Shown here one piece after another: positions 14,268 to 24,643 of a stretch of DNA of 64,000 nt. The notes below the pieces were generated by a model. It saw only the letters and a program-made list of their open reading frames with translations. It searched no databases and had not been told where the DNA came from. Both the position numbers and the translations under genes were made by a program. Source of the stretch: Pontibacter sp. G13 (GTDB lineage Bacteria > Bacteroidota > Bacteroidia > J057); NCBI RefSeq assembly GCF_031851795.1, contig NZ_CP134696.1, positions 3,492,501 through 3,556,500 of the forward strand, in the 5' to 3' direction. Positions within the stretch are counted from its first letter, which is position 1. Every line of letters starts with the position of its first letter.

Positions 14268-17200
14268 ATGCTTCCCTATGCTCGCCTGATCCTTGGGCTG
14301 ATGCTGCTCGGTATGCTCTCTGCCTGCCAGCGACAGCCCATCCTAGATTTGCAACCCCAAGATCACATCGTCCTGCTCGGCAACAATCTCCCCGCCCGGA
14401 TGATGGAATATGGATTCTTTGAAACAGAATGCCATGTACTGTATCCCAATCACCACTTGTTGATTCGCAACATGGGAGATGGGGGAAATACCCCCGGTTT
14501 CCGACCGCATTCAGGCCGTGATACGCCTTGGGCATTCCCGGGCGCAGCGGCATTTCAGACCGATCTGGCACGCCCGAGCGGCAGCAAAGGAGATATGGAA
14601 TATCCAGATGAATGGCTCACGCGATTGTCTGCTGATGTGCTGATCTGCTTCTTCGGATATGGCGAATCCTTTGGAGGGCTCGATCAACTTCCCCTTTTTC
14701 AACAAGAGCTTGCCGCTTTCCTCCGTCACAGTCTCCAGCAGACATACAATGGCTCCACGCCCCCCAAGCTCGTTTTGGTAGGCCCACAAGCTTTCGAAGA
14801 CCTTTCCTCGATTCGCGATTTGCCCAATGGCAGCGCAGCCAATCACAGGCTGAATATATACACGAAAGCGATGAAACAGATCGCCGATTCTATGGGAATA
14901 CCATTTGTCGATCTCTTCCACGAATCTCAAAATTGGTACCTCAAGGAAGAAAGCCCCTGCACCATCGACGGTTTTCAATTCAATGAGGCCGGTAATCAAA
15001 AGCTTGCCCAATTCCTCGCCAAGGAATTGCTGGGAAGTTCTGGCAAAAGCAGCCCCCACCGAGATTTGATCCAATCAGCCGTTCAGGAAAAGAACTGGAT
15101 GTGGCACAACGACTTCAAGATCCCCAATGGCGTCCATGTGTTTGGCCGGAGACACAAGCCATTCGGTCCAGACAATTATCCCCAAGAACTCAAGAAAATA
15201 CGCGAGATGACCGCCATTCGCGATTCGGCGATTTGGCTGGCTGCTCAAGGAATTGAACTGGATCTGGAGAGCGCGGACGGCCTTACTTCCCCCATGCCGA
15301 CCATAGCATCCAATTATCGGATATCGCCCGATGGCCCGGCACCTCGGTATTTGTATGGAGCAGAAGCACTCGAAAGCATGACGATGGCCGAGGGGTTTAA
15401 GATCGAACTATTTGCTTCGGAAGAGATGTTCGAGGAATTGGCCAATCCCCTTCAAGTGGCATTCGATGATCGCGGCCGCCTCTGGGTTGCCGTTGCGCCC
15501 AGCTATCCGCATTACCAGCCCGGCCACACCAAACCCAATGACAAACTTTTGATTCTGGAGGACACAGACGGAGACGGCCGCGCAGACAAGCAGACAATCT
15601 GGGCAGATGGATTGCATCTTCCAATGGGCTTCGAATTGACACAACATGGCGTGTTCATTTCTCAAGGCACACATTTGAAATTGCTTCGAGACACAGATGG
15701 CGATGATCACGCAGATACTTCAGAGATCGTCCTCAGTGGATTCGACGATCACGACACCCATCATGTGATCAGTGCTTTCTGCGCTGATCCAAGCGGGGCG
15801 ATTTATATGGGAGAGGGGCTTTTCCTCCACTCCAATGTTGAAACTCCCTACGGAGTCGTCCGAGCTACTCAAGGGGGATTTTTTCGATACGATCCTAACC
15901 GCGGGCAACTTGAACGAACCGCCCAAATTTCCATTCCCAATCCTTGGGGAACCGCATTTGATGAATGGGGTCAGCCCTTTTTCCTGAGTACCTCGGGTCC
16001 TGCCATGCGCTGGTTGATGCCGAGTACTATTCGTCCAGAGTATGGCAAAATGTCTCCGATGCCTCCCAGCCTGATTCCACAGGATTACAAGGTGCGTCCA
16101 ACTTCTGGACTGGAATTCATTTCAAGCAGGCATTTCCCTGAGGAGGTTCAAGGTGATCTACTTTTGGGCAATGTAATTGGCTTTCGAGGAGTGAGGCAGC
16201 ATCAGATTTCGGAAGCGGGAACGGGCTACGAATTGGATTTTCGGCAGGATTTGGTTTCCAGCTCTGATCCAAATTTCCGCCCCGTGGATTTCGAATTTGC
16301 GCCGGATGGTTCTCTGTATCTCGCCGATTGGCACAACATGCTCATTGGCCACATGCAGCACAATGCCCGAGATCCATACCGAGATCATGCCCACGGCAGA
16401 ATCTACCGAATCACTTATCCAAGTAGACCATTGATCAAACCTACCCAGATCGCAGATGCATCCATTCGCGAATTGCTGGACGTGCTGAAATCACCTGAAT
16501 ATAGAACGCGGTACCGAGCCAAACGGGCGTTGCGGGGCCGTGATCCGCAGACAGTCATCCAGGAAATCACGGATTGGGTACATAGCCTAAATCCCTCCGA
16601 TCCCCAGTATGAGCGGCACCTCCTCGAAGCGCTTTGGGTATCCTGGGGACTGAACCGAATAGACCGAAAATTGCTTCAACGGCTTTTGCAATCAGAGGAT
16701 CACCGAGTCAGAGCTGCGGCTGTGATGGCAGTTCGATACAACGGGCACCAACTTCCCTATCAGATTGCCTATTTGAAAACAGCGGCCGCCGATCCGCATG
16801 GTCGGGTGAGACTTTCTGCCGTAGTGGCGGCTTCATGGCTGAACCCTGAGACAGCGCTGGAAATACTCGAAATTGCGGAACAGCATCCCGTGGATCCATG
16901 GATGAAGAAATTCTACCGCGTGATCAAAAAGCGCAATACCCCTCCCGATCAATATGTCGAAACTAACCCGGGCCAATCTGATGAAGTCATGCACCCGTTG
17001 GCCATTCCCAATTTCAAACTTGGGAAAAGCATCTATCACGAAGAAGGCAACTGTGTGACCTGCCATCAAGAAGATGGGAAAGGGCTTCCAGCATCTGGAT
17101 TCCCACCAATCGCAAAAAGCGAATGGGTCACCGGAAATCCCGAAACCCTCATCAAAATCACACTCAAAGGATTGATGGGGCCGATTCAGGTGTCAGGCAA

Positions 17201-17396
17201 ATCCTACCCCGGACAAGTACCCATGACCCCGTTTGGGGGCATGCTCAATGATACCGAGGTGGCCGCAGTCCTCAATTATGTGCGGAATTCATTTGGGAAC
17301 AAGGCCGCGATTATTTCAGAGGATCAAGTAAAAGCCGTCCGTGCGCAAGTTTCCGACAAAGAAGGATTCTATCTTGCCAAAGAACTCAACCCGTGA
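14268..17396 (+). CDS. Lipoprotein with SGNH-like, PVC-type dehydrogenase propeller, HEAT and cytochrome c domains
   Basis: 1042 residues. A lipoprotein signal ends in LSAC near residue 20. Next comes an SGNH-hydrolase-like domain (about 33-250) whose block I reads LLGNNLP instead of GDS and whose last block reads DGFQFNEAG instead of DxxH, so it is probably not catalytic. The middle (about 370-740) is a beta-propeller of the membrane-bound dehydrogenase family (TIGR02604-like) with calcium loops DTDGDGRAD and DTDGDDHAD. HEAT-like helices follow, then a cytochrome c domain with CVTCH at 929-933 and a likely axial Met near 986 (PMTPFGG). It should be an envelope redox enzyme acting on a sugar or similar substrate. 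The ThuA-like gene follows after three bases, so they form an operon. Confidence 0.82.
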   Translation: MLPYARLILGLMLLGMLSACQRQPILDLQPQDHIVLLGNNLPARMMEYGFFETECHVLYPNHHLLIRNMGDGGNTPGFRPHSGRDTPWAFPGAAAFQTDLARPSGSKGDMEYPDEWLTRLSADVLICFFGYGESFGGLDQLPLFQQELAAFLRHSLQQTYNGSTPPKLVLVGPQAFEDLSSIRDLPNGSAANHRLNIYTKAMKQIADSMGIPFVDLFHESQNWYLKEESPCTIDGFQFNEAGNQKLAQFLAKELLGSSGKSSPHRDLIQSAVQEKNWMWHNDFKIPNGVHVFGRRHKPFGPDNYPQELKKIREMTAIRDSAIWLAAQGIELDLESADGLTSPMPTIASNYRISPDGPAPRYLYGAEALESMTMAEGFKIELFASEEMFEELANPLQVAFDDRGRLWVAVAPSYPHYQPGHTKPNDKLLILEDTDGDGRADKQTIWADGLHLPMGFELTQHGVFISQGTHLKLLRDTDGDDHADTSEIVLSGFDDHDTHHVISAFCADPSGAIYMGEGLFLHSNVETPYGVVRATQGGFFRYDPNRGQLERTAQISIPNPWGTAFDEWGQPFFLSTSGPAMRWLMPSTIRPEYGKMSPMPPSLIPQDYKVRPTSGLEFISSRHFPEEVQGDLLLGNVIGFRGVRQHQISEAGTGYELDFRQDLVSSSDPNFRPVDFEFAPDGSLYLADWHNMLIGHMQHNARDPYRDHAHGRIYRITYPSRPLIKPTQIADASIRELLDVLKSPEYRTRYRAKRALRGRDPQTVIQEITDWVHSLNPSDPQYERHLLEALWVSWGLNRIDRKLLQRLLQSEDHRVRAAAVMAVRYNGHQLPYQIAYLKTAAADPHGRVRLSAVVAASWLNPETALEILEIAEQHPVDPWMKKFYRVIKKRNTPPDQYVETNPGQSDEVMHPLAIPNFKLGKSIYHEEGNCVTCHQEDGKGLPASGFPPIAKSEWVTGNPETLIKITLKGLMGPIQVSGKSYPGQVPMTPFGGMLNDTEVAAVLNYVRNSFGNKAAIISEDQVKAVRAQVSDKEGFYLAKELNP

Positions 17397-20172: not shown

Positions 20173-21273
20173 ATGAACGTACCCGGATCTCAACCATCCT
20201 GTACGCTTCTGTATCCCGGCAAACAATCCATCGAAACCATTCTTGGCAAGCCCGCTCGGGCATTTGATTGGGAAAATCCCTTTGAGCAGAATCTCTTGTT
20301 CTTTGGTGACAATCTCCCCATCCTGCGCGCCATGCAGCCTCAATGGCATGACAAAATTGATCTCATTTACATAGATCCTCCTTTCGGAACTGGCCAGCGA
20401 TTTGAAGATCGGTCCAAGCAGCTCGCTTATGAGGACCCAATCGCAGATCACGAATACTGGGAATTTATCCGGGAAAGGGTGGTACTGCTACGGGAGCTGC
20501 TTTCGGAATGTGGCAGTCTCTACCTCCACATCGACAAGAAGGCGGGTCATTACCTCAAGGTGATTTTGGATGAAGTATTCGGTCCGGAAAACTTCATCAA
20601 TGATCTCACCCGCATCAAGTGCAATCCCAAGAACTTTTCCCGGAAGGCTTTTGGCAACTATTCGGACATGATCCTGTACTACGCCAAAAACAGAGATCAG
20701 CAAATCTGGAATCCCATTCGCGAACCTTTGGCATCTGCGGACATCGAGCGACTCTACCCTCGGACAGACCCACAACGAGGCCCATACACCACCCATCCGC
20801 TTCATGCCCCCGGCGAAACTCGTAATGGCGATACTGGGCAGCCATGGCGTGGCATGACACCTCCCAAAGGCAGACATTGGCGATACAAACGTGCGAAGCT
20901 GGAAGAGTTGGAGCAGCAAAATATGATCGAGTGGTCCAGCACGGGCAATCCTCGCAAGCGGTCATTTGCCAGCGAGCATCCCGGCAAAAAGATTCAGGAT
21001 GTCTGGACCTTCAAGGACAAGGGAATTGCTTACACACAGTATCCCACCGAAAAAAATCACGATTTGCTAGAGAGGATCATCGCGCATTCTTCGACCCCAG
21101 ATAGCTGGGTCTTGGATGCATTTGCCGGTTCAGGAGGCACATTGGCCACAGCAGAAAAGATGGGAAGGAAATGGGTAGGAATGGATTGTTCGCCATTTGC
21201 GATCGAGGTGGCCCAAAATCAATTATCCCGCATTTCGGCCACCTACCGATATGAAATCCATCAGGAATCCTGA
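20173..21273 (+). CDS. Solitary beta-class DNA methyltransferase
   Basis: 366 residues. Motif IV is IDPPFGTG (DPPF at 68-71) and the SAM-binding motif I is FAGSGGT at about 317-323 near the C-terminus. This IV-before-I order defines the beta class of amino-methyltransferases (N6-adenine or N4-cytosine), as in type III Mod and M.RsrI. The region between (about 130-300) should hold the target recognition part. No restriction, Res or specificity gene lies nearby, so it is an orphan regulatory or remnant methylase. A MmcQ/YjbR DNA-binding-fold gene converges on it with a 13-base overlap. The recognition site cannot be read from sequence. Confidence 0.88.
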   Translation: MNVPGSQPSCTLLYPGKQSIETILGKPARAFDWENPFEQNLLFFGDNLPILRAMQPQWHDKIDLIYIDPPFGTGQRFEDRSKQLAYEDPIADHEYWEFIRERVVLLRELLSECGSLYLHIDKKAGHYLKVILDEVFGPENFINDLTRIKCNPKNFSRKAFGNYSDMILYYAKNRDQQIWNPIREPLASADIERLYPRTDPQRGPYTTHPLHAPGETRNGDTGQPWRGMTPPKGRHWRYKRAKLEELEQQNMIEWSSTGNPRKRSFASEHPGKKIQDVWTFKDKGIAYTQYPTEKNHDLLERIIAHSSTPDSWVLDAFAGSGGTLATAEKMGRKWVGMDCSPFAIEVAQNQLSRISATYRYEIHQES

Positions 21274-21635
21274 TCAGCAGCCCATGCCTTGAGTTGCTCT
21301 CGGTCGGCCTTCTTGAGCTTGGCGACGACCAATTCGTAGGAATGTGTGATCAGGTGTTGGAGAAATCGGTTGTCGTAGCTTCCTTCGAATGACACCGTAT
21401 TCCAATGCTTCTTGTTCATGTGGAAGCCCGGCGTAATCTCCTCAGGATATTTCTCCCGAAGTTCCAGCGCATATTCCGGATCGCATTTGAGATTCATGGA
21501 TACGGGTTCGGACAGCGAAGTCAGCGCGAACATTTTCCCCATGACTTTGAAGACGAGCGTGTCTTCGTCAAACGGAAACTCTTCAGTCACCCCCAGTTTC
21601 AGGAGACAATATTCGCGCATTGATTCTATGTTCAT
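21261..21635 (-). CDS. MmcQ/YjbR family protein
   Basis: 124 residues, the usual length of MmcQ/YjbR (CyaY-like fold, DUF419) proteins. Signature pieces are EEFPFDEDTLVFKVMGKMFAL, SMNLKCDPEYALELRE, GFHMNKKHWNTV and LITHSYELVVAKL. The family is thought to bind DNA in some members, but its function is poorly defined. Its ATG overlaps the stop codon of the upstream 22192-21632 gene by four bases, and its 3' end overlaps the methyltransferase convergently. Confidence 0.9.
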   Translation of the reverse strand: MNIESMREYCLLKLGVTEEFPFDEDTLVFKVMGKMFALTSLSEPVSMNLKCDPEYALELREKYPEEITPGFHMNKKHWNTVSFEGSYDNRFLQHLITHSYELVVAKLKKADREQLKAWAADQDS

Positions 21636-22192
21636 AGAGAAGCTCGATCAGTGTTCTGGATGCCTTTTGCAATATTGACGCCCGCACGCTGAACAGTCAC
21701 ATCCGCGACTTCACGGCTATCCAACCGATGGTAGGGGAGTTTGTAATCTTGTAGCGGACTGGATTCGACGAGGATGGCCCCGTTGATCTCGATCTTCATC
21801 ACTTGGCTACAAGCTTGAACATCGTCCTTCACGAATACATGATCCATGTAGGAGATTTTCATGGTCAGGTTGGTGGATTGGATAATTTCGGGAGCAATGT
21901 GGCAAACGAAATTTCCTTGTTTGTCGGCTTTTTGGGTAGTCAGCACGCGGTCTCCACTCTTGATAAGGATTCGGGCATCTTTGAGTGGATTGCCAGTGGT
22001 CCGTTCGATTAATCTTCCGGAGATCCTCAAGACACAACCCAATGATTCTGGAGAATCATGAGATGGTTCAGGGTTTTTCCAGAATTGAGAGAAGCCTACT
22101 ATCGGATAAGCGCTTGAAGCAGCAGATCCCTCCAACCAGCCCAACATGCATACAAGCAGACACAGCAGGGACTTGACGCATAGGTGATTCAT
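21632..22192 (-). CDS. Secreted protein with carboxypeptidase-regulatory-like domain
   Basis: 186 residues. A signal peptide (hydrophobic LLCLLVCMLGW) is followed by about 25 residues of linker and then a carboxypeptidase-regulatory (CarboxypepD_reg) beta-sandwich, visible in ISGRLIERTTGNPLKDARI, which is the typical first strand pair, and in the later LTMKISYMDHVFV. Such domains occur at the N-terminus of TonB receptors and as stand-alone envelope proteins. There is no plug or barrel here. It is translationally coupled (ATGA) to the MmcQ/YjbR gene, which is an odd pairing. Function unknown. Confidence 0.65.
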   Translation of the reverse strand: MNHLCVKSLLCLLVCMLGWLEGSAASSAYPIVGFSQFWKNPEPSHDSPESLGCVLRISGRLIERTTGNPLKDARILIKSGDRVLTTQKADKQGNFVCHIAPEIIQSTNLTMKISYMDHVFVKDDVQACSQVMKIEINGAILVESSPLQDYKLPYHRLDSREVADVTVQRAGVNIAKGIQNTDRASL

Positions 22193-22597: not shown

Positions 22598-24067
22598 CTA
22601 TACTGCCACGTGATCGGGTTTGAGCTCGATCGTTTCACCTTCGGATTTAGCCATGACCAAGGTCAAAGTCAAATCGCCGATGATGTTCACCACGGTCCGG
22701 CACATATCCAGAATTCGGTCCAATCCAAAGATCAAAGCAATCCCTGATTCGGGTACCCCCACAGTCGCCAATACCAAGGCCAACGTAATCATCCCAGCAC
22801 CCGGTACGCCAGCAGCTCCCACCGAAGCCAAGGTCGCCGTCAAAATGATCGTCATCTGTGCAGCGAAATCCAACTGAATGTCATAAACCTGTGCAATGAA
22901 CAATGCGGCTACCGCCTGATATAGGGCAGTACCATCCATGTTGATCGTCGCACCCAAGGGCAATACGAAGCTTGCGGTCTGACGTGAAACGCCAAGATTT
23001 TCCTCCGCTACATTCATGGAAATGGGCAGCGTCGCACTGGACGAACTGGTCGAAAATGCCATGACAATCGCCTCTTTGATAGCCCGCAGGAAATCAATGG
23101 GATTCTGCCGTGCATAGAACATGATGAAGGAACCATGTGTGATCGCAATATGCAAAGCGAGACCAACCAGCACGACCACCGAGTATTTGAGAAGCAAATA
23201 CATCACATCCAATCCCAGCGTTGCCACGACATTCAGCATCAAAGCCGCAACCCCGTAGGGTGCAGTTTCCATAGCCAGCGTTACCATTTTGATGATGGCA
23301 TCGTTCAGGCCGTCAAACATGGAAATCAGCGGTGCAGACTTATCTGGAGGAATGATCGTGATACAAATCCCCAAGAACAATGCAAAGAAAATCACCCCGA
23401 GCATATCGCCATCTGCGAGGGCCTTGAAGGGGTTGGTCGGAACGAGCCTAATGACCAGATCTACGACCTTTTCGAAGGCGGTTTGCTCCTTCATTTTGGC
23501 GGTCTGATCTGCCCCGCTGTCCACTTTGGATTGGGCGGCAGACTGGTACTGAGAGACGAGTTCCTCCTTGGCAGATTCGGGGAGTCCCACACCGGGCTGG
23601 CCAATATTTGCCACGGCAATACCGATCATGGAAGCCACAGCCGTCGTGAGCATGAAAAAGCCAAAGGCTTTTGCGCCCATTTTACCGACCTTATTGATAT
23701 CCCCAAGGGAAGCCGCCCCTAGGACGAGCGATACCAACACCAGCGGCACCACCAGCATTTTGACAAGCCGGATGAAAATGGTCCCAATCCAGTCGGTGTA
23801 GACCGTATATCTTTGTGCGCCAAACTTGGCTTTGTATTCGCCCAAACTGACAACTCCATCCCCGCTTCGATCGATATTCGCAAAATCCGATTCACTACTG
23901 GTGAGTCGATCAGATTCACTTGCGGCAAAGTTTTCCTCCCAAGAGATCTTTTCATCTCCATTGGTATCGAGGGTGGCAAAGCGGTCGCGATCATAGCTGA
24001 AGTTGAGAATTGTCCCGATGACAATCCCCACCAACATGCCAATCAAGATTTTGGTGTAGAGTTTCAT
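22598..24067 (-). CDS. Dicarboxylate/amino acid:cation symporter with two EF-hands
   Basis: 489 residues of the DAACS (GltP/GltPh) family, which imports glutamate, aspartate or dicarboxylates with Na+ or H+. Family hallmarks are the HP1 serine-rich FSTSSSSATLP, the TM7 NMDGTALY motif and the HP2/TM8 region ending LDRILDMCRTVVN. The unusual part is the loop after TM1: two canonical 12-residue EF-hand loops, DTNGDEKISWEE (34-45) and DRSGDGVVSLGE (66-77), each with ligands at 1, 3, 5, 9 and 12. By topology this loop faces the periplasm, so calcium may stabilise or gate the carrier. The second loop after TM2-TM3 is also long and polar (about 165-205). A terminator follows. Confidence 0.93.
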   Translation of the reverse strand: MKLYTKILIGMLVGIVIGTILNFSYDRDRFATLDTNGDEKISWEENFAASESDRLTSSESDFANIDRSGDGVVSLGEYKAKFGAQRYTVYTDWIGTIFIRLVKMLVVPLVLVSLVLGAASLGDINKVGKMGAKAFGFFMLTTAVASMIGIAVANIGQPGVGLPESAKEELVSQYQSAAQSKVDSGADQTAKMKEQTAFEKVVDLVIRLVPTNPFKALADGDMLGVIFFALFLGICITIIPPDKSAPLISMFDGLNDAIIKMVTLAMETAPYGVAALMLNVVATLGLDVMYLLLKYSVVVLVGLALHIAITHGSFIMFYARQNPIDFLRAIKEAIVMAFSTSSSSATLPISMNVAEENLGVSRQTASFVLPLGATINMDGTALYQAVAALFIAQVYDIQLDFAAQMTIILTATLASVGAAGVPGAGMITLALVLATVGVPESGIALIFGLDRILDMCRTVVNIIGDLTLTLVMAKSEGETIELKPDHVAV

Positions 24068-24157: not shown

Positions 24158-24643
24158 TTAGCGGTTGAGGCAATCAATCAACGTTTTGAGGAAAACGATC
24201 ATCACCCCTTTGTTGCGGTCGCGAATGGCGAATTCGTCTTCTTCCAAAATGGACTCCACGACAAAAAGCAAGATTTCGCGCTGCGGATATCCTTCCAGCC
24301 AATCTTTGGCGAGTGATTCCAGGGTACCTTCTTCGGCAGCTTCCAAGTCCTCCAACAAGGGGAGATTGAGGGATTTGACCTCTTCAAGGGTCGCCTCGTC
24401 GATCGGTGCCAATTGCGTATTGGCCTGATACATCATTTTCCAGACGCTTGCACCAAGGAAGAAGAGCAATTCGCCTTCATCCTCATTGAAATCTTCTGAT
24501 TCGGCAAGGGTAAGTAGGTAAGTAAATGCGAAGGGCTGTTGTTCGCCAAATTCATCCAAGAAGCCTTCGATTTCGGCTTCTTCTTCCAAATTGCTGATCC
24601 AAAGCTCAACGTCTTGTACCTGGGATTCTGTAACGGGATCCAT
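24158..24643 (-). CDS. Acidic protein of unknown function
   Basis: 161 residues, strongly acidic (many Glu-rich runs such as NLEEEAEIEGFLDEFGEQ), mostly helical by eye, with no signal peptide or membrane segment. It has no motif I recognise; it may be a Bacteroidota-specific cytoplasmic protein. A minus-strand TACATTTG box (24661-24668) matches the -7 consensus TAnnTTTG and lies 17 bases before the ATG, which supports it as an expressed gene. It is 91 bases upstream of the symporter gene on the same strand. Confidence 0.65.
   Translation of the reverse strand: MDPVTESQVQDVELWISNLEEEAEIEGFLDEFGEQQPFAFTYLLTLAESEDFNEDEGELLFFLGASVWKMMYQANTQLAPIDEATLEEVKSLNLPLLEDLEAAEEGTLESLAKDWLEGYPQREILLFVVESILEEDEFAIRDRNKGVMIVFLKTLIDCLNR

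Follow-up and report, generated by a model that had tools for sequence, protein, structure and literature searches.

A DAACS/SLC1-type carrier of Pontibacter sp. G13 with a predicted EF-hand insert between its first two transmembrane helices

The carrier gene and its family

The DNA analyzed, hereafter the window, is a 64,000-nucleotide stretch of the Pontibacter sp. G13 genome (NZ_CP134696.1, positions 3,492,501 to 3,556,500). On its reverse strand, a single open frame with an ATG start (22598-24067 (-)) encodes a carrier of 489 aa. A preliminary description of this DNA had presented the protein as a DAACS transporter, and this was borne out by Pfam, the SDF model (PF00375) matching residues 3-474 (E 1.2e-123; 413.5 bits, cut-off 27.9). 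The structural model of the carrier adopted the elevator-transporter fold, with a whole-protein mean pLDDT of 85.4. By Foldseek, its top match was the ancestral aspartate transporter (E 2.0e-23, target TM 0.88), with GltPh and GltTk next, and these proteins were the nearest solved relatives in the same order by sequence as well as by fold. GltPh, GltTk and the ancestral aspartate transporter (9bgy/9bgz) share with the window carrier the Pfam SDF domain and the substrate and cation residues, the Foldseek matches having 34-40% identity.

Several DAACS/SLC1 signatures were recognized in the protein, i.e., SSSSATLP at residue 341, NMDGT at residue 376 and R457, which we take to be the serine-rich HP1 tip, a family motif and the arginine for acidic substrates, respectively. 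Alignment to GltPh located the substrate and cation motif LDMCRTVVNIIGD at residues 453-465 (22673..22711 (-)), where carrier residues D454, R457, T458, N461 and D465 align to D394, R397, T398, N401 and D405 of GltPh, its substrate- and cation-site residues. Because R457 is present, an acidic substrate is favored. We infer that the protein is a cation-coupled carrier of the aspartate/glutamate type within the DAACS/SLC1 elevator family, the substrate class being taken from its homologues. Where GltPh has Tyr89, a sodium-site residue, the carrier has Phe (residue 138), and the aspartate transporter that heads its solved relatives is an ancestral, uncoupled one; with these two points in mind, the ion coupling of the carrier may differ from that of GltPh. 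The name GltP was considered and rejected. E. coli-type GltP and DctA belong to the same superfamily, and the NCBIfam model for GltP (PRK11283) outscored that for DctA, yet both scores (274.4 bits against a cut-off of 638, and 239 against 513) were far below the curated cut-offs.

The EF-hand insert between TM1 and TM2

TM1 (approximately residues 3-22; 24002..24061 (-)) was assigned by hydropathy, falls within a modelled helix (residues 3-33) and is conserved in eight orthologues. The 70 residues that follow (23-92) are hydrophilic, lie between two hydrophobic segments and contain two EF-hand loops. The insert itself, at approximately residues 23-80 (23828..24001 (-)), is delimited by a gap in four of the eight orthologues. 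Loop 1, DTNGDEKISWEE, occupies residues 34-45 (23933..23968 (-)) and retains its ligand positions in one orthologue (G009), and loop 2, DRSGDGVVSLGE, occupies residues 66-77 (23837..23872 (-)) and resembles the last hand of two orthologues with six hands. Two EF-hand loops between TM1 and TM2 had been described earlier from the letters of the DNA, and we found them at the very same residues. The term "canonical" then applied to them held in part: both loops have 12 residues, with oxygen ligands at positions 1, 3, 5 and 9 and Glu at position 12, but position 6 is Glu in loop 1 (Gly in loop 2), and the Pfam EF-hand pair model (EF-hand_7, PF13499) scored 22.6 bits (E 1.4e-4), below its cut-off of 30. 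Gly at position 6 of an EF-hand loop is common, not obligatory. Because of the Glu at this position in loop 1, a stricter PROSITE-like pattern fitted loop 2 only. The passages of PMC3997525 that were searched held nothing useful on position 6.

A Pfam scan of the window carrier with E up to 1 returned SDF and EF-hand families only. The model for XopAW, an EF-hand effector, matched residues 27-83 (E 3.6e-6; 26.9 bits, cut-off 120), which is read as EF-hand likeness and no more. In the PDB, residues 20-93 had seven distinct sequence relatives with E no higher than 0.01, and these were EF-hand proteins. The nearest was the EF-hand domain of SCaMC-1, with a whole-sequence E of 3.4e-5, although no single aligned stretch passed the threshold alone, and the others included a polcalcin and further calcium-binding proteins. 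Shuffling the whole protein 20,000 times gave two or more loops by chance in 0.165% of cases, and shuffling residues 23-90 alone, again 20,000 times, gave them in 0.025%, as counted with a looser loop pattern that was picked after the protein had been seen. With the PF13499 model alone, the carrier was the sole match at E 0.001 in the 7.67 Mb genome of the window, and the same was true of the orthologues with six hands in their respective genomes (G006 and G002).

The insert had also been placed in a periplasmic loop. This is the side expected for it, and the distribution of charges agrees. Residues 1-6 contain two K/R and no D/E and the TM2-TM3 loop contains three K/R and one D/E, as against eight K/R and 15 D/E in residues 23-92, so that, by the positive-inside rule, the insert would lie outside. 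It is most likely situated on the outer rim of the carrier scaffold, topology and scaffold position being those of the homologues. AlphaFold2, run without calcium on 45 sequences, gave average pLDDT values of 41-59 per ten-residue block across residues 31-90, from an input alignment in which none of the 44 relatives had EF loops at the insert site. Helices were modelled around the loops at residues 3-33, 43-54 and 75-81, with low pLDDT there, and the insert modelled alone reached a pLDDT of 38.9. The helix-loop-helix pair is thus a prediction from sequence, and both models have low confidence in this region. Among the solved DAACS/SLC1 relatives, all of the best stretches listed begin at carrier residue 82 or beyond it, and the insert was unaligned in the three alignments shown.

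Orthologues with and without the insert

We compared the carrier across 13 genomes of the family to which the window's genome belongs, its order being represented by 22 genomes. Orthologues, defined by identity, were present in eight of the 13 family genomes, window included, and more distant SDF paralogues were also present in some of the 13. Six near-full-length orthologues were 65-73% identical to the window carrier over the aligned part, and that of G009 was a fragment at a contig end (63% identity over residues 1-145). The insert was found in four of the eight, with two loops in the window and in G009 and six in both G006 and G002, the count of six being obtained with a pattern that also permits E or Q at position 3 (a narrower pattern gives five each). 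In the other four (G001, G010, G004 and G007), residues 23-80 are missing and TM1 is joined straight to a short pre-TM2 segment. Since half of the orthologues do without the module, transport by the carrier would not need it. The Pfam EF-hand_1 model matched the six-hand forms over its cut-off (E 9.7e-18 and 1.1e-14), as did the EF-hand_7 pair model (55.5 and 47.1 bits; cut-off 30), which gave 18.4 bits, under the cut-off, for the G009 fragment. An insert peculiar to the window protein, a prospect that the preliminary description had raised, was therefore rejected, three further orthologues carrying it.

The window and G009 proteins could be aligned through the insert without gaps. Within residues 23-87, 9 of 10 ligand positions were identical, as against 15 of the 55 other positions (Fisher p 0.0003); outside the insert (residues 1-22 and 88-145), 68 of 80 positions were identical. 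Given this difference between ligand and other positions, the metal ligands of the insert look to be under selection. When all 16 loops were pooled from the four proteins, Asp at position 1, I/L/V at position 8 and Glu at position 12 occurred in all 16, Ser/Thr at position 9 in 14 and Gly at position 6 in seven; the search pattern had fixed positions 1, 3, 5, 8 and 12, and had left free position 9 and the choice of Glu over Asp at position 12.

With regard to the origin of the module, loop 2 of the window scored 64 and 55 against the last hands of the two six-hand forms, and loop 1 scored 47 and 39 against their first hands and 46 against the fifth hand of G006. The comparison favors a shared origin of the two-hand and six-hand inserts. 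G002, with six loops, and G010, with none, belong to the same genus. In both genomes, as in the insert-free G004, the carrier adjoins a purL-like gene, the G002 and G010 copies of which are 74% identical. Since the same neighbor accompanies the carrier with and without the insert, the module has, as judged from these sequences, been gained or lost in place, within one locus. The purL-like gene has AIRS domains and lies at 9783-12017 of L172, 4447-6660 of L174 and 5236-7404 of L175, one of these loci having a carrier with six EF loops and two having carriers with none. Its homologue in the window's genome is some 218 kb from the carrier.

In a tree of 21 rows, a single EF-hand clade was rejected (AU p 0.031). 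A stricter tree, built from TM2 onwards and with the G009 fragment left out, did not reject such a clade (AU p 0.234), with thinly filled columns removed and two of the six outgroup rows uncut at TM2; the seven orthologues formed no clear branching in it. We lean towards either a single origin followed by later losses or exchange between lineages.

EF-hand loops preceding TM2 were detected in six of 170 distinct ORF translations of the SDF type, a set that includes fragments or paralogues, and these six comprised four proteins and two truncated copies from one family of genomes. The idea that EF-hand carriers are common thus lacked support. A GTDB scan, which extended to phyla beyond that of the window, returned no EF-hand carrier among the best 80 of 570 relatives, a set that may lack records close to the window's genome. 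Likewise, two overlapping samples of 395 genomes each, one from the class and one from the phylum, yielded no further EF-hand case among the loci fetched from the matches listed; many matches, some of which span the insert region at low identity, lay outside those loci. Plasmid records gave no carrier match of any kind, and this search carries little weight because even the ordinary carrier gave none. By eye, unrelated TM1-TM2 insertions of approximately 50-110 residues, without EF loops, were apparent in relatives titled Bacteroidota and Ignavibacteriota, among others. Their occurrence in several lineages points to the TM1-TM2 loop of SDF carriers as a general insertion site. Such non-EF insertions were seen at L043 4225-5781, L047 3772-5331, L036 5983-7485, L056 5992-7608 and L089 3640-5097, and also in L140, L142-L144, L167 and L187-L189.

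Among open-licence papers, searched by title and opening abstract, we found no description of EF-hands in a DAACS/SLC1 carrier. Nor was such a carrier described in 12 of the 34 passages on transporters and EF-hands in PMC10574481, which reviewed the calcium proteins of bacteria in 2023.

Proposed role of the insert and alternative explanations

Taken together, the sequences suggest that the insert is a removable, calcium-responsive add-on, the nearest relatives having none, two or six loops. In the mechanism that we propose, the scaffold would have acquired an EF-hand module at its outward-facing end, in the connection from TM1 to TM2. Each loop would bind one Ca2+ on the periplasmic side, and the two loops would fold into a compact pair. 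TM1 and TM2 would form part of the static scaffold against which the transport domain slides; for this reason, the state of the module, folded or unfolded, would tune the carrier, so that its activity or stability would be set by external Ca2+. The parts of this proposal differ in strength. That the insert binds Ca2+ is predicted with good confidence from its loops, the chances that it modulates transport or stability are about even, and for the proposal as a whole, i.e., a scaffold-borne module that binds Ca2+ in the periplasm and so adjusts the activity or stability of the carrier to the external level, we would put the case at evens.

The serious rival, and the main one to sensing, is a module whose loops are always loaded with Ca2+, the metal serving solely to shape an extra domain that contributes stability or offers partners a surface. 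Many waters contain Ca2+ at millimolar levels, which could leave EF sites filled at all times, and EF-hands outside cells are often in saturating Ca2+. The number of loops varies (two, two, six, six and, in four orthologues, none) while the six near-full-length orthologues keep 65-73% identity, other relatives carry unrelated long insertions at the same site, and conservation of the ligands fits a structural role as well as it fits sensing. We regard such a structural module as possible, and somewhat less probable than tuning by external Ca2+. The readiness of the TM1-TM2 loop to accept unrelated insertions of some 50-110 residues (by eye), and the absence of the module from half of the orthologues, would also suit a passenger, the EF-hand segment then being a graft that has no role and is either neutral or in decay. 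A passenger sits poorly, however, with ligand positions that persisted as identity elsewhere in residues 23-87 fell to 15 of 55 positions, or with Asp at position 1 and Glu at position 12 in 12 of 12 loops of the six-hand forms (Asp at position 1 and an acidic residue at position 12 being required by the pattern), and we consider it unlikely. More doubtful still is a module that binds another metal, e.g., a lanthanide, or that uses its metal to hold a surface polymer or a partner protein. Metals other than calcium can be bound by EF-hand loops, but Pro at position 2, the mark of lanmodulin loops, was present in none of the 16 loops, and nothing to suggest such a metal or partner was found among the five neighboring ORFs scanned.

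Tuning by external Ca2+ would have a parallel in mitochondria. Like the window carrier, AGC1/AGC2 and SCaMC-1 (SLC25) have an EF-hand domain attached to a metabolite carrier, calcium regulation having been shown for the SLC25 carriers and being predicted here. PMC4250520 describes human AGCs as aspartate/glutamate carriers under calcium regulation, with eight EF-hands, a mobile unit that responds to calcium and a vestibule that might regulate substrate access. The EF-hands of AGC and SCaMC are N-terminal, whereas those of the window carrier lie inside a loop. Since no mitochondrial-carrier domain was matched in the window protein, the likeness, drawn by analogy, is one of design and not of family membership. 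The SLC1 family, to which the brain glutamate transporters belong, serves as a model for elevator transport. If the proposal is true, a plug-in Ca2+ module together with close, module-free orthologues would make it possible to test directly how the elevator cycle is altered by an accessory domain on the static scaffold, and whether acidic amino-acid carriers came under calcium control on two separate occasions.

Neighboring genes

When five neighboring ORFs were scanned with Pfam, none pointed to calcium and two had no match at all. One of the latter, an acidic-rich ORF of 161 residues (24158-24643 (-)), shares the strand of the carrier and begins the upstream side, 90 bases away. The other, an ORF of 186 residues (21632-22192 (-)), lies downstream of the carrier with a YjbR protein (21261-21635 (-)), and among six relatives flanked on both sides this pair was shared by G006 only. 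An N6_N4 DNA methylase (Pfam PF01555) is encoded at 20173-21273 (+). Finally, a large ORF at 14268-17396 (+), lipoprotein-like by eye, contains the acidic stretches DTDGDGRADK and DTDGDDHADT and a CxxCH motif.
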